Assembly: GCA_023251435.1 (NCBI GenBank)
Contig: JAHEYU010000007.1
Coordinates: forward strand, 1 to 64,000
Reading direction: 5' to 3'
Length of the DNA: 64,000 nt
Origin: Bacteroidota bacterium
GTDB lineage: Bacteria; Bacteroidota; Bacteroidia; Bacteroidales; Prolixibacteraceae
The notes under the pieces: generated by a model
Told to the model about the DNA's origin: nothing
The model's input: the letters and a program-made list of their open reading frames with translations, nothing else
The model's database searches: none
Program-made: the position numbers and the translations under genes
In this document: piece after piece, positions 4,026-59,734 of the stretch
Layout: each line of letters starts with the position of its first letter
Position numbering within the stretch: the stretch's first letter is position 1

Positions 4026-4158
4026 TTCTTTCAAGATTAAAGTCAAAAGTACAAAGTTAAAAGTTATAAAATCAGGAAAAATCACCCTATTTACTCATCT
4101 CATTTTTCGACAATTTTTACATGCTAAATGAAAATTATCCGATATTTTTCATGCGTGA

Positions 4159-4244
4159 ATAATTTGTTTTTTAATAGTCGTATGGAACTCGCATGTCGAC
4201 ATTCTCATATTCTTGAATGTAAGCAATTTACATGCTCGTTTCAT
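4159..4244. repeat. Structured dispersed element, copy A
   Basis: An 86-base element in the 404-base gap between the nnr start and the POT transporter. A second copy lies at 52857-52937. Shared blocks are ATAATT(T)GTTTTTTAAT, ATGGAACTCGC, CATTCTC, GCAATTT and TCGTTTCAT. Copy A can fold as a nested hairpin: outer ATGGAAC/GTTTCAT (one G-T pair), middle GCATGT/ACATGC, inner CATTC/GAATG. Read on the minus strand it also holds a 31-codon ATG frame starting at 4244 (MKRACKLLTF...). The function is unknown; see findings. Confidence 0.7.
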
Positions 4245-4343
4245 TTAGTAAGAAAGTGTAAACCACCTGAAAATGAAATTTCTTATCGCGAGAGGTCGTA
4301 TTTGTAGTCGATTTAAGCTGTATAATACATGATTAATATCCCA

Positions 4344-33814: not shown

Positions 33815-33990
33815 CGGAAGTTATTTTTATATTGAGTGATTCGATTACAATTTTTGACAAAAAAATGTCCGAAATAAATTGGACGTTGCAGTATAACAGC
33901 AAAAAGCAGGATTGGGTTGAGATATAGATGGAGATTCTCAATAAATATGTCAATTTACAGGTAAAAGCCCTGTGTTGTTAAATTCATCTG

Positions 33991-34700
33991 TGACCGTCGG
34001 CTAAAGCCAGAGGGCAAAGGATAACAATACATTCGATGATAATTTGAGACAAAATAATTGATTTACATTCTGAAAATATTCTCGAAAGGCCTTATTCAAA
34101 GCACTATCCTTTGCCGTCACATTCATGTGACGGATGAAGATCATCCCATTTTCCTGGCTTTAGCCCAACCCTTCCAATGCCAAAAAATAAAAAAAAATTA
34201 GCAACCCATTTATGCCTGATATTCATTAAATTAGTGGATCCACCTAAAACAACAACTATATGTCTTATGTCAAAATCTGGCTTCATTGTGTTTGGAGCAC
34301 AAAAAACAAAACCTGCATTATACCAAAGTCTTTTCGTCCGGCCTTGCTAAAACATTTCAGGGAAAACGCCAATGAAAAAAACATTGTTTTGGATTACATC
34401 AATGCGCACGAAGATCATGTTCATGCACTCGTTAATTTGGGCAAACAACAAAATATGGCCACTGTAATGCAATATCTGAAAGGAGAAAGTTCATTCTGGA
34501 TAAACAGCCAGAAAATCCTGCCTTGTCAGTTTTCCTGGCAAGATGATTATTTTGCAGTTTCTGTAAGTCATTCTCATGTTGACAGAGTTAGGCAATATAT
34601 TAAAAATCAGGATGAGCATCATAAAAAGATTAGTTGGGAAGAGGAGGTCGAGCTTTTTCTGAAGAAATATGGATTTGAAAGAATTAAGGGCTAAAGTCTC
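33991..34700 (+). mobile_element. REP-associated tyrosine transposase unit with inverted REP sequences
   Basis: The 445-base gap before the transposase holds paired REP-like sequences. GGCTAAAGCCAG (33999-34010) is the exact complement of CTGGCTTTAGCC (34154-34165), and GGCAAAGGATA (34013-34023) of TATCCTTTGCC (34105-34115). Inside lies a perfect hairpin CCGTCACA-TTCA-TGTGACGG (34114-34133). A third half, GGGCTAAAG, sits at the transposase stop (34688-34696). The REP core and Y1 gene together define a RAYT unit. It is not a classical IS: there is no second gene and no target duplication I could see. Confidence 0.75.
34260..34694 (+). CDS. REP-associated tyrosine transposase (IS200/TnpA_REP family)
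   Basis: A 144-residue HUH endonuclease of the Y1 transposase fold. VKIWLHCVWSTKNK opens it, the metal motif is H53-V-H55 in AHEDHVHALV, and the candidate catalytic tyrosine is Y113 in VRQYIKNQDEH. An IS200-type segment MQYLKGESSFWIN lies between. The flanking GGCTAAAG palindromes are its likely DNA substrates. Members of this group maintain and spread REP sequences and usually no longer jump as IS. The gene appears intact. Neighbours are ccsBA and mtgA, both housekeeping. Confidence 0.93.
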   Translation: MSYVKIWLHCVWSTKNKTCIIPKSFRPALLKHFRENANEKNIVLDYINAHEDHVHALVNLGKQQNMATVMQYLKGESSFWINSQKILPCQFSWQDDYFAVSVSHSHVDRVRQYIKNQDEHHKKISWEEEVELFLKKYGFERIKG

Positions 34701-52366: not shown

Positions 52367-52849
52367 TCAACAAACTCGCTCAAGTAATACAACCGCATGA
52401 ACCGAAATGCCTTCTTCCCTGCCTTCAAACCCCAGCTCTTCGGTAGTGGTAGCTTTGATTGAAACAGCATCCACATCAACCCCAAGAATTCGGGCAATGG
52501 TTTCTTCCATTTCAGGAATAAACGGTTTTAGTTTGGGCTGTTGCGCGGCCACCGTTACATCCAGGTTTTCCACCCGATAGTTTTTTGTTGCAATCAGCTC
52601 ATTGGTTTGTGCCAGCAAAATCTTGCTGTCGATATTTTTGAAATCTAAAGAAGTGTCAGGAAAATGGCGGCCAATATCGCCCATTTTAGCAGCGCCCAAC
52701 ATGGCATCGCACAAAGCATGAAGCAGAACATCACCATCGGAATGTGCAACAGTACCTTTACTGTGAGGAATAAGAACACCGCCCAACCACAAGGTTTCGC
52801 CCTCGGCTAAGCGGTGTACATCGTATCCGTATCCAATCCGGAATTTCAT
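52367..52849 (-). CDS. ispF: 2-C-methyl-D-erythritol 2,4-cyclodiphosphate synthase
   Basis: 160 residues. Metal-site motifs D10-V-H12 (GYGYDVHRL) and HSDGDVLLHALCDAML are complete, as is the CDP site KATTTEELGFEGREEGI. It acts in the MEP isoprenoid pathway in the cytosol as a trimer. An imperfect palindromic element (52857-52937) lies just upstream of its ATG. No other MEP genes are in the window. Confidence 0.97.
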   Translation of the reverse strand: MKFRIGYGYDVHRLAEGETLWLGGVLIPHSKGTVAHSDGDVLLHALCDAMLGAAKMGDIGRHFPDTSLDFKNIDSKILLAQTNELIATKNYRVENLDVTVAAQQPKLKPFIPEMEETIARILGVDVDAVSIKATTTEELGFEGREEGISVHAVVLLERVC

Positions 52850-52856
52850 CTGTTTA

Positions 52857-52937
52857 TAATTTGTTTTTTAATTGCCAGATGGAACTCGCCAATAATCATT
52901 CTCCTGTGTGAGAAGCAATTTTCATGGTTCGTTTCAT
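52857..52937. repeat. Structured dispersed element, copy B
   Basis: Second copy of the element at 4159-4244, in the 100-base gap between porV and ispF, starting 8 bases before the ispF ATG. Its stems are outer ATGGAAC/GTTTCAT (one G-T), middle GCCA/TGGT, inner TTCTC/GAGAA, while copy A has other bases in the inner two stems at matching places. The minus strand carries two short reading frames (13 and 14 codons) in place of the 31-codon frame of copy A. Confidence 0.7.
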
Positions 52938-52949
52938 ATTATTGAGATA

Positions 52950-57961: not shown

Positions 57962-58282
57962 TATCGAGTTTATTTACATTAGTGATTTAACGATCAGCCG
58001 ATCTCTATATTGTTTTTCCAGTCTATAAATCACGAAATTTACTGTACACATTCGTTTAAAGAAAAGCAAAATTATGCACAACAAACAAATATCCACAAAA
58101 AAAAGATTGAATAACCGGACAATATCAATTCAACAATTTAGTTATATTTGTGAGTCTTAAAAAATAGGAAATAATTAAATGAAGGGATGAGCCATGTGAA
58201 TTACTCCTAGATAAGGGTGGTAAAATACAAGCTGACGAATGGAAGGTCTCTTCTGACAATAAAAAAAATAAATTATACGCAA
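57962..58282 (+). promoter_or_regulatory. 321-base divergent gap between porU and gldJ
   Basis: AT-rich, without an evident gene. TATATTTG at 58143-58150 is a good -7 box on the plus strand but has no TTG at 19-20 bases, so its promoter status is partial. A second ATG just upstream of the GldJ start is not used. Confidence 0.4.
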
Positions 58283-59734
58283 ATGAAATTGAAATCCATA
58301 ATGTTATTTGGTCTTGCTGTTCTAATTGCAGGATGCGGATTACTTGGAAAAGGAAAGGGCAAAAGATCAGATGTTTCTCATTCTACAGGATGGGAATTCG
58401 GTGATCCTGATTTGGGTGGTTTTCAGTCTGACGATAATTATGCACAGGAAACCGGACCGGGTTTAGTTTTCATACAGGGAGGAACCTTCTCTATGGGTCG
58501 TGTAGAACAAGATGTTATGTACGACTGGAACAATGTTCCAAAAAGAGTTACGGTTGCCTCTTTTTATATGGATGAAACCGAAGTTTCGAACCTTGATTAC
58601 CGTGAATATCTTTTTTGGCTGAAAAGAGTTTACCCTGCAAATCCTGAAAAATACCTGGCTGCCCTTCCGGATACTTTGGTTTGGCGCGAAGAATTGGCCT
58701 ACAACGAACCCTACGTTACCAACTATTTACGCCATCCGGCTTACGGAAACTATCCGGTAGTAGGTGTTTCGTGGAAACAGGCCGACACTTATTCTAAATG
58801 GAGAACCGACCGGGTTAACGAAAAAATATTGATTTCAAAAGAAATCATTTCTCCTGACAATGCTCAAAACGGTCAAAACGTATTCACAACAGAATCATTC
58901 CTTGCAGGACTTTATCAGGGAACTGAAGGTAAAAAGCCATTACAGGATGCTGCCGGAACTGGCAGGCGGGTGCGTTGGGAAGATGGAGTTTTACTACCTA
59001 ACTACAGGCTTCCTACCGAAGCTGAATGGGAATATGCAGCACTTGGCCTTGTTGGAAATACCGAAGAGGAACTTCTGACCGACCGCAAATTATATCCATG
59101 GAACGGAAGCTATCTGCGCAATAGTGATAAGAAAAACAAAGGTCAAATGATGGCCAACTTTACCCGTGGACGAGGTGACTTGATGGGTATGGCAGGCGCA
59201 CTTAATGACAATGCAGACATTACTGCACCGGTTATTTCATACCAGCCTAATGATTTTGGATTATATTGTATGGCAGGTAATGTGAACGAATGGGTGTACG
59301 ATGTTTATCGTCCGCTGTCGCCAAATGATGTAGCTGAATTTCAACCTTTCCGTGGAAATACATTTACAAAATACCGCACCGATGCTGATGGGAAACTTGT
59401 ACGCGACCAGTATGGCGAATTAGTTAAAGATACCATTGCTGACAGCCGTAACTTCAAAGACGGAGATTATCGTTCACAGATCATTGAAGGTGACGACTGG
59501 AATGCTCAAAAAGACAAAGCAACTACCAATTCGATGTATATCCAATCAAACAAAGATGGCCAGTTCTCTTCGATGATTACTGACAATGCCCGCGTTTACA
59601 AAGGTGGAAGCTGGAAAGACAGACCATACTGGCTTACACCAGGAACAAGAAGATTTAAAGCTGAAACTGAAGCTGCCAACGATCTAGGTTTCCGCTGTGC
59701 GATGACACGCGTGGGAAGTCCTGACGGATTTTAA
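58283..59734 (+). CDS. gldJ: Gliding/T9SS lipoprotein GldJ
   Basis: 483 residues from ATG 58283, with a lipobox (AVLIAGC, Cys18). It is a formylglycine-generating-enzyme (SUMF1) fold: FIQGGTFSMGRVEQDVMYDW, FYMDETEVSNLDYREYLFWL, RLPTEAEWEYAALG and MAGNVNEWVYDVYRP, then the ending KGGSWKDRPYWLTPGTRRF with GFRCAM. It lacks a clear catalytic cysteine pair, as expected for structural relatives. GldJ is a lipoprotein of the gliding and type IX machinery. The next gene, murF, follows after a terminator. An upstream in-frame start (58217) adds an unsupported extension. Confidence 0.94.
   Translation: MKLKSIMLFGLAVLIAGCGLLGKGKGKRSDVSHSTGWEFGDPDLGGFQSDDNYAQETGPGLVFIQGGTFSMGRVEQDVMYDWNNVPKRVTVASFYMDETEVSNLDYREYLFWLKRVYPANPEKYLAALPDTLVWREELAYNEPYVTNYLRHPAYGNYPVVGVSWKQADTYSKWRTDRVNEKILISKEIISPDNAQNGQNVFTTESFLAGLYQGTEGKKPLQDAAGTGRRVRWEDGVLLPNYRLPTEAEWEYAALGLVGNTEEELLTDRKLYPWNGSYLRNSDKKNKGQMMANFTRGRGDLMGMAGALNDNADITAPVISYQPNDFGLYCMAGNVNEWVYDVYRPLSPNDVAEFQPFRGNTFTKYRTDADGKLVRDQYGELVKDTIADSRNFKDGDYRSQIIEGDDWNAQKDKATTNSMYIQSNKDGQFSSMITDNARVYKGGSWKDRPYWLTPGTRRFKAETEAANDLGFRCAMTRVGSPDGF

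Follow-up and report, generated by a model that had tools for sequence, protein, structure and literature searches.

A mobile DNA family of Bacteroidota with two covarying stems and a bias towards start codons

The PATEs of Haloquadratum were described in PMC3119063 as elements with no inverted terminal repeats, target duplication or transposase gene. They carry a near-terminal palindrome with longer spacing on the 5' than on the 3' side and a targeting sequence of 4-6 bp, and their terminal-only forms may be mobile (PMC3119063). In the IS200/IS605 family, according to PMC6006769, a short sequence immediately 5' of the hairpin foot serves as a guide that pairs both with the target in the left flank and with the terminal bases at the right end; our comparison with this family also draws on PMC7290912. 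REP/RAYT systems, as described in PMC3733652 and PMC6006769, form many dispersed palindromic copies, as does the element reported here, and according to PMC3733652 the orphan CGTC REPs also have no dedicated transposase.

The window, that is, the whole 64-kb stretch of DNA analysed here, contained two copies (A and B) belonging to a mobile DNA family of about 90 bases in Bacteroidota. The element resembled PATEs in having no inverted terminal repeats or target duplication, in being too short for a transposase, and in its near-terminal palindrome, longer 5' spacing and short targeting sequence, with the terminal-only PATEs being the closest. However, its host belonged to Bacteroidota, we found no transposon of the IS605 type that shared its ends, and it had a covarying left stem and a strong start-codon bias. 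Similar to IS200/IS605 transposons, it had a short fixed target and a sequence at the hairpin foot that was complementary to both the left target and the right end. In contrast to them, it had no tnpA and would use one hairpin for both ends, and the pairing could include six target bases and three covarying pairs inside the unit. Compared to REPs (20-40 nt), the element was longer (~90 nt), had neither the GTAG nor the CGTC foot in our alignment, did not flank a Y1 gene and was located before start codons. The attC sites of integrons have paired 7-nt arms (RYYYAAC/GTTRRRY), a bulge and a variable tip. Our element was similar in layout, with 7 nt in each paired arm, a bulge and a tip that varied, but its arms did not fit the attC consensus, there were no cassette genes, and the genus had no integrase over the cut-off. 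We consider the element ordinary in kind, as a non-autonomous element of the PATE or REP sort, and new in its anatomy, target and host.

Copies in the window and range of the family

The repeat was laid out as a host TTTCAT, a variable triplet xyz, a T-rich core, the triplet x'y'z', ATGGAA, a hairpin and a terminal TTTCAT, and both A and B started at a host TTTCAT and ended with their own. Copy A was located on the forward strand at the host target TTTCAT in positions 4147-4152, the CAT of which was the 5' arm of the left stem. Its mobile unit (4153-4244; model match 4145-4246, 88.8 bits) contained GCG as xyz, the core, CGT, the proposed guide ATGGAA (4182-4187), assigned to the 5' foot of the right hairpin from the sequence and the pairing columns of the alignment, the right hairpin and the right end TTTCAT (4239-4244). 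Copy B, also on the forward strand, was located at a TTTCAT (52844-52849) that was the complement of the start ATGAAA of ispF (PF02542). Its unit (52850-52937; model match 52842-52939, 103.3 bits) consisted of CTG as xyz, the core, CAG, the candidate guide ATGGAA (52879-52884), the right hairpin and the right end TTTCAT (52932-52937). A possible third, degenerate copy was found on the reverse strand at 58180-58282 (model match 58180-58290, 32.9 bits, E 0.0016 for the window), where it abutted the ATG at 58283 of a predicted forward-strand gene (58283-59734); this copy was too weak for the genome-wide list. Copy A was itself nested in another palindromic repeat (4126-4152 and 4245-4252; TAAATGAAAATTATCCGATA..TTTTCATTTA type) that recurred in relatives, and other copies of that repeat ran through TTTTCATTT uninterrupted, at sites that were not orthologous.

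The original prediction had pointed out exact blocks shared by A and B, and both copies and all the quoted blocks were indeed present in the window, with 77% identity over 60 nt. The repeat that it outlined was real, but its left boundary was set 7-13 nt too far to the right, missing the 5' arm of the second stem. That account did not recognise the repeat as an inserted mobile element whose target and ends can be defined, nor did it include the second stem or the tendency to abut start codons.

The block ATGGAACTCGC occurred 21 times in the 5.73-Mb host genome, compared to no occurrences of the reversed block, and 18 of the 21 contexts were the element, as judged by eye. In the same genome, a 95-nt query produced 45 BLAST matches at E<=10, and the covariance model identified at least 40 copies at E<=0.01, with 150 of the 4522 first-look candidates scored for this genome count. 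The expectation of further copies in related genomes was borne out: 83 of 149 genomes matched (own genome included), representing 31 of 82 genera, and the matches covered all 23 genomes of the genus. A pattern scan of named genomes returned at least 113 stretches, many from Prolixibacteraceae and others from other Bacteroidota, including Labilibaculum; among the matches listed, a few had other labels, such as one Candidatus Atribacteria MAG (labels as recorded). There were no matches at E 1e-5 in plasmids or phages and one match among viral contigs. Consistent with the earlier statement that no named element of this form was known, Rfam had no matches in the window at gathering scores and only matches far below the cut-off on A and B, and no description of the element was found in searches of open-licence papers.

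We collected 143 distinct copies by a fixed core pattern, which made the core invariant by construction, and close relatives were kept in. The units were mostly 87-99 nt long, and none of the 143 had a gene inside or was an autonomous or long form. In the alignment of 66 copies no inverted terminal repeats were seen, and a palindrome was located near the unit termini with longer spacing on the 5' side. Some units (L043, L154, L160, L179 and others) carried a nested palindrome of the TCCCGATTAATCGGGA or CCGCCAGCTGGCGG type in the variable stretch or beside ATGGAA.

Insertion sites and gene starts

The mobility of the element was well supported. At the ispF start, copy B was absent in all 21 genomes of the genus that had both flanks, and in six of the 21 the aligned flanks were at most 7 nt apart. 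The site read GGAATTTCAT|ATT in G001 and G004, compared to GGAATTTCAT, a unit ending in GTTTCAT and then ATT in the host genome. At the nnrE start, a unit was present in G011, and the site was empty in G014, G009, G002, G022 and G007. Moreover, a unit with a model span of 144 nt interrupted the 3' end of a Y1 gene in G005, and related Y1 genes continued uninterrupted at that point. The pairs of filled and empty sites demonstrated clean insertion 3' of TTCAT. In three genomes (G015, G009 and G021; loci L202, L204 and L218) the ispF-porV spacer held an unrelated insert of ~320-600 nt where the window has B.

Tandem units had one TTTCAT in common. One locus (L293) had three different units in a row, with ACG, ATG and CTG as xyz, where the second and third paired fully and the first at two of the three positions. 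The two ends differed in their constancy. The left TTCAT was not preceded by T in 15 of 142 copies, and any base could stand before the host TTTCAT. The right end was TTTCAT in 132 of 143 copies, reading GTTTCAT or ATTTCAT, and among the other 11 only one (L099) had an ATTCAT string nearby. This difference was suggestive evidence against target duplication, with p = 4.7e-5 being approximate since the right end was searched as TTTCAT. No replication-strand bias was seen among the copies in G012 (21 vs 28 of 49 by hand count, with the origin placed roughly from 20 samples).

Insertions were strongly biased towards gene starts. For 119 of 142 copies, the left TTCAT coincided, in reverse complement, with the start codon of an ORF of 60 or more codons, compared to 33% of the 1501 other TTTCAT sites in the loci, coding sites included. 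We also compared occupied and unoccupied sites in the 113 loci from the scan, using crude gene calls. Occupied TTCAT sites were at starts in 71 cases, intergenic in 24 and interior in 2, and the corresponding numbers for unoccupied sites were 228, 501 and 2166. For TTTCAT in these loci, there were 63 start, 20 intergenic and 1 interior sites among the occupied, and 127, 191 and 878 among the unoccupied. Thus, the share of starts among the non-interior TTTCAT sites was 0.76 for occupied (63/83) and 0.40 for unoccupied ones (127/318), an odds ratio of 4.7. For TTTTCAT, 41 start and 9 intergenic sites were occupied vs 83 and 77 unoccupied. In two genomes with model-found copies, where 58 of 60 loci could be placed, 45 of the 58 placed copies abutted an ORF start; a trend with age was unclear, as a start was abutted by 25 of 30 higher-scoring vs 20 of 28 lower-scoring copies.

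The proteins encoded downstream were diverse. Of 78 that were eligible, 20 were scanned, and 16 of these had a Pfam family, for example adenylosuccinate synthetase, a LytTR regulator, a transpeptidase and two HlyD proteins. Because of this diversity among the 20 scanned, we rejected the idea of a common regulon.

Two covarying stems

The second stem, which we call the left stem, had the form CATxyz...x'y'z'ATG and covaried. Among the 142 copies with the left TTCAT, 125 paired at all three xyz positions, and the mean pairing was 0.951 vs 0.718 in shuffles, where the maximum of 1000 shuffles was 0.770. The pairs were of many types, including CTG/CAG, GTG/CAC, ATG/CAT, CCG/CGG, ACG/CGT, TCG/CGA, CAG/CTG and TTG/CAA. 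The xyz triplet was fully Watson-Crick in 17 of 20 intergenic copies and in 53 of 63 copies at start codons. Since intergenic copies kept this pairing, the stem was not kept for translation control alone.

To assess both stems together, 131 full copies were thinned to 77, of which 70 were listed; six short, cut or carrying long inner inserts were dropped, and the two window copies were added, giving an alignment of 66. Standard pairs made up 96.8% of the cells (87.2 +/- 0.7 in shuffles), with a covariation score of 0.275 (0.096 +/- 0.010 in shuffles). None of 500 shuffles reached the observed value of either measure, although these counts are not probabilities because the copies are related. 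When the partners were slid by 1-3 columns, the covariation score was at most 0.066. The signal came from four column pairs (12/41, 13/40, 48/121 and 51/118). Two cruder measures were not above shuffles: four pairs had double changes, and 483 of 500 shuffles reached this number; for the further pair types (12), 117 of 500 shuffles did so. The element was accordingly supported as structurally constrained, in agreement with the original prediction of compensatory changes and selection on structure.

That prediction had also proposed a three-level hairpin. The right-hand parts of A and B did fold in this way as RNA, with z -3.54 for A (0 of 200 shuffles as good) and z -1.51 for B (10 of 200), but the energy was weak for B. 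Whole units were not unusual (z -1.04 for A and -0.57 for B). When DNA parameters were used, the right-hand part stood out for A (z -2.59) and was no better than shuffles for B (z +0.39). Since the folding energy was weak for B, the structural case rests on covariation across many copies. The proposed middle stem was partly supported (columns 51/118 and 52/117), and the inner stem fell in a stretch that varied in length and sequence. The cells that were not Watson-Crick did not favour the proposed strand: there were 8 G-T vs 7 A-C cells in the left stem, and 4 G-T vs 15 A-C cells at positions 1, 4, 5 and 6 of the right stem. The ATGGAA sequence was common to both stems and could pair with one of two TTTCATs, that of the host on the left or that of the right end; therefore, the full left and right stems were mutually exclusive.

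Putative mechanism and the moving enzyme

We think it probable, though by no means certain, that the family represents non-autonomous single-hairpin mobile elements with an IS200/IS605-like target logic, similar to PATEs, that are moved in trans. According to this model, one strand of a single-stranded DNA intermediate would fold into the right hairpin, with ATGGAA at its 5' foot acting as a guide. The host target TTTCAT was complementary to ATGGAA in the alignment columns, and during transposition the guide would pair with it, the pairing being extended by the three covarying pairs into the unit, as well as with the right-hand TTTCAT that ends the unit itself. An enzyme acting in trans, presumably of the HUH type, would cut after both CATs, and the excised unit would be joined 3' of another TTCAT. 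As ATGAAA is complementary to TTTCAT, insertion would often place the unit directly before a start codon, where the A-rich sense strand of the unit would become a new leader that the gene may tolerate.

In the genus, the Y1 transposase family PF01797 matched in all 23 genomes. Among 132 loci around these matches (35 + 20 + 77, with flanks of ~1-2 kb, or less where a contig ended), the element was present at the G005 locus alone, inside the Y1 gene itself. Three weak matches to the element model near Y1 genes were at chance level (L360, E 0.16; L369, E 2.2 and 2.6). In 30 loci from relatives that had a Y1 of the G005 type, there was no element other than G005's own, and a local Y1 profile found nothing in the ORFs of the loci scanned. 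G005 and G013 had one Y1 match each, and these were of different types. An IS605-type transposon with related palindromes was not found around the Y1 genes of the genus or in the searched part of other clades. The lack of a linked enzyme is what most weakens the Y1 reading. The window had a Y1 (IS200-like) transposase gene of its own (34260-34694, PF01797), which was preceded by its own palindromic repeats of the GGCTAAAGCC type (33990-34694 in all), and such palindromes were also beside the Y1 gene at L055. Many of the inspected Y1 genes had palindromes of their own nearby, and by eye several Y1/RAYT types of the family (L053, L329-L342, L359-L369) each had a different palindromic repeat next to them, such as GGGGCGTTAGCCC, GCCCTTTCAGGGC, GTGCTGATTTGCAATCAGCAC or GACTTAGGAAAGTC. 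A gene between two elements in G012 (L290) was considered as a candidate and did not look transposase-like by eye.

Alternatively, the moving enzyme may be of a class other than Y1, such as a tyrosine recombinase, an integron-like enzyme or an undescribed class recombining at the short TTCAT core. The lack of a linked Y1 or TnpB (PF07282 had no match in the 23 genomes of the genus) agrees with this possibility, and the arms ATGGAAC/GTTTCAT, with an unpaired 2x2 bulge next to them, may be seen as attC-like. Additionally, tyrosine recombinases matched the integron-integrase model TIGR02249 in 21 of the 23 genomes; however, all of these matches were below the cut-off, which no genome exceeded. 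Only one of 22 distinct recombinase places (25 loci, including three duplicates) had the element, which abutted the recombinase start codon, so there was no regular linkage, and the occurrence of any base before TTTCAT excludes a G^TT core. We therefore regard such an enzyme as unlikely. Equally doubtful in our view is a distinct orphan class of elements, suggested by the missing enzyme and moved by one that belongs neither to a resident Y1 nor to a TnpB-linked or integron system, where the guide would find complements of ATGAA starts and a start-competent leader of the element's own would take the place of the gene's 5' leader, making the insertion tolerated. Tyrosine recombinases in frames of ~530-600 aa recurred in the genus (L505-L508, L523), and the one in G010 had the element at its start codon.

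Three other explanations were considered. The element might be a cis-acting RNA switch in 5' leaders, where TTCCAT pairs with the gene start or with an upstream ATGAAAC and controls translation. The position of most copies next to start codons, the mutually exclusive pairings of ATGGAA and the excess of right-stem A-C cells, which would be G-U on the sense strand, fit this idea. However, the stem was also kept away from starts, the sense strand would have an A-C mismatch at the invariant G-T in both stems, the downstream proteins were diverse, and the sites were empty in relatives, making a switch improbable. Even less credible, and disfavoured by us, was a DDE-type MITE with TTTCAT as a 6-bp target duplication: TTTCAT was present on both sides and the empty sites were clean, but no terminal inverted repeats were seen, and 14 of the 15 copies with a variant left first base had TTTCAT on the right, which is suggestive given that the right end was searched as TTTCAT. 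Finally, the competing view that a conserved short peptide is encoded on the minus strand failed as an account of the conservation and has practically no chance of being correct. The right end did provide a minus-strand ATGAAA, and the commonest closed class was a 13-codon frame (20 of 131 copies), but the frame lengths were scattered from 2 to 30 codons, the frame was open through the unit in 34 of 131, the unit length fell in all three frames, and the stems covaried.

Bacteroidota genomes contain an abundant and structurally constrained repeat that has no match in Rfam, and the identity of the moving enzyme becomes a concrete question. If the model of guided insertion is correct, the target choice would be encoded in a short guide that has to fit the target, with gene starts as the preferred targets. 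The element would then rewrite 5' leaders in nature, and guide-directed single-strand insertion could be studied on it as a simple test case.
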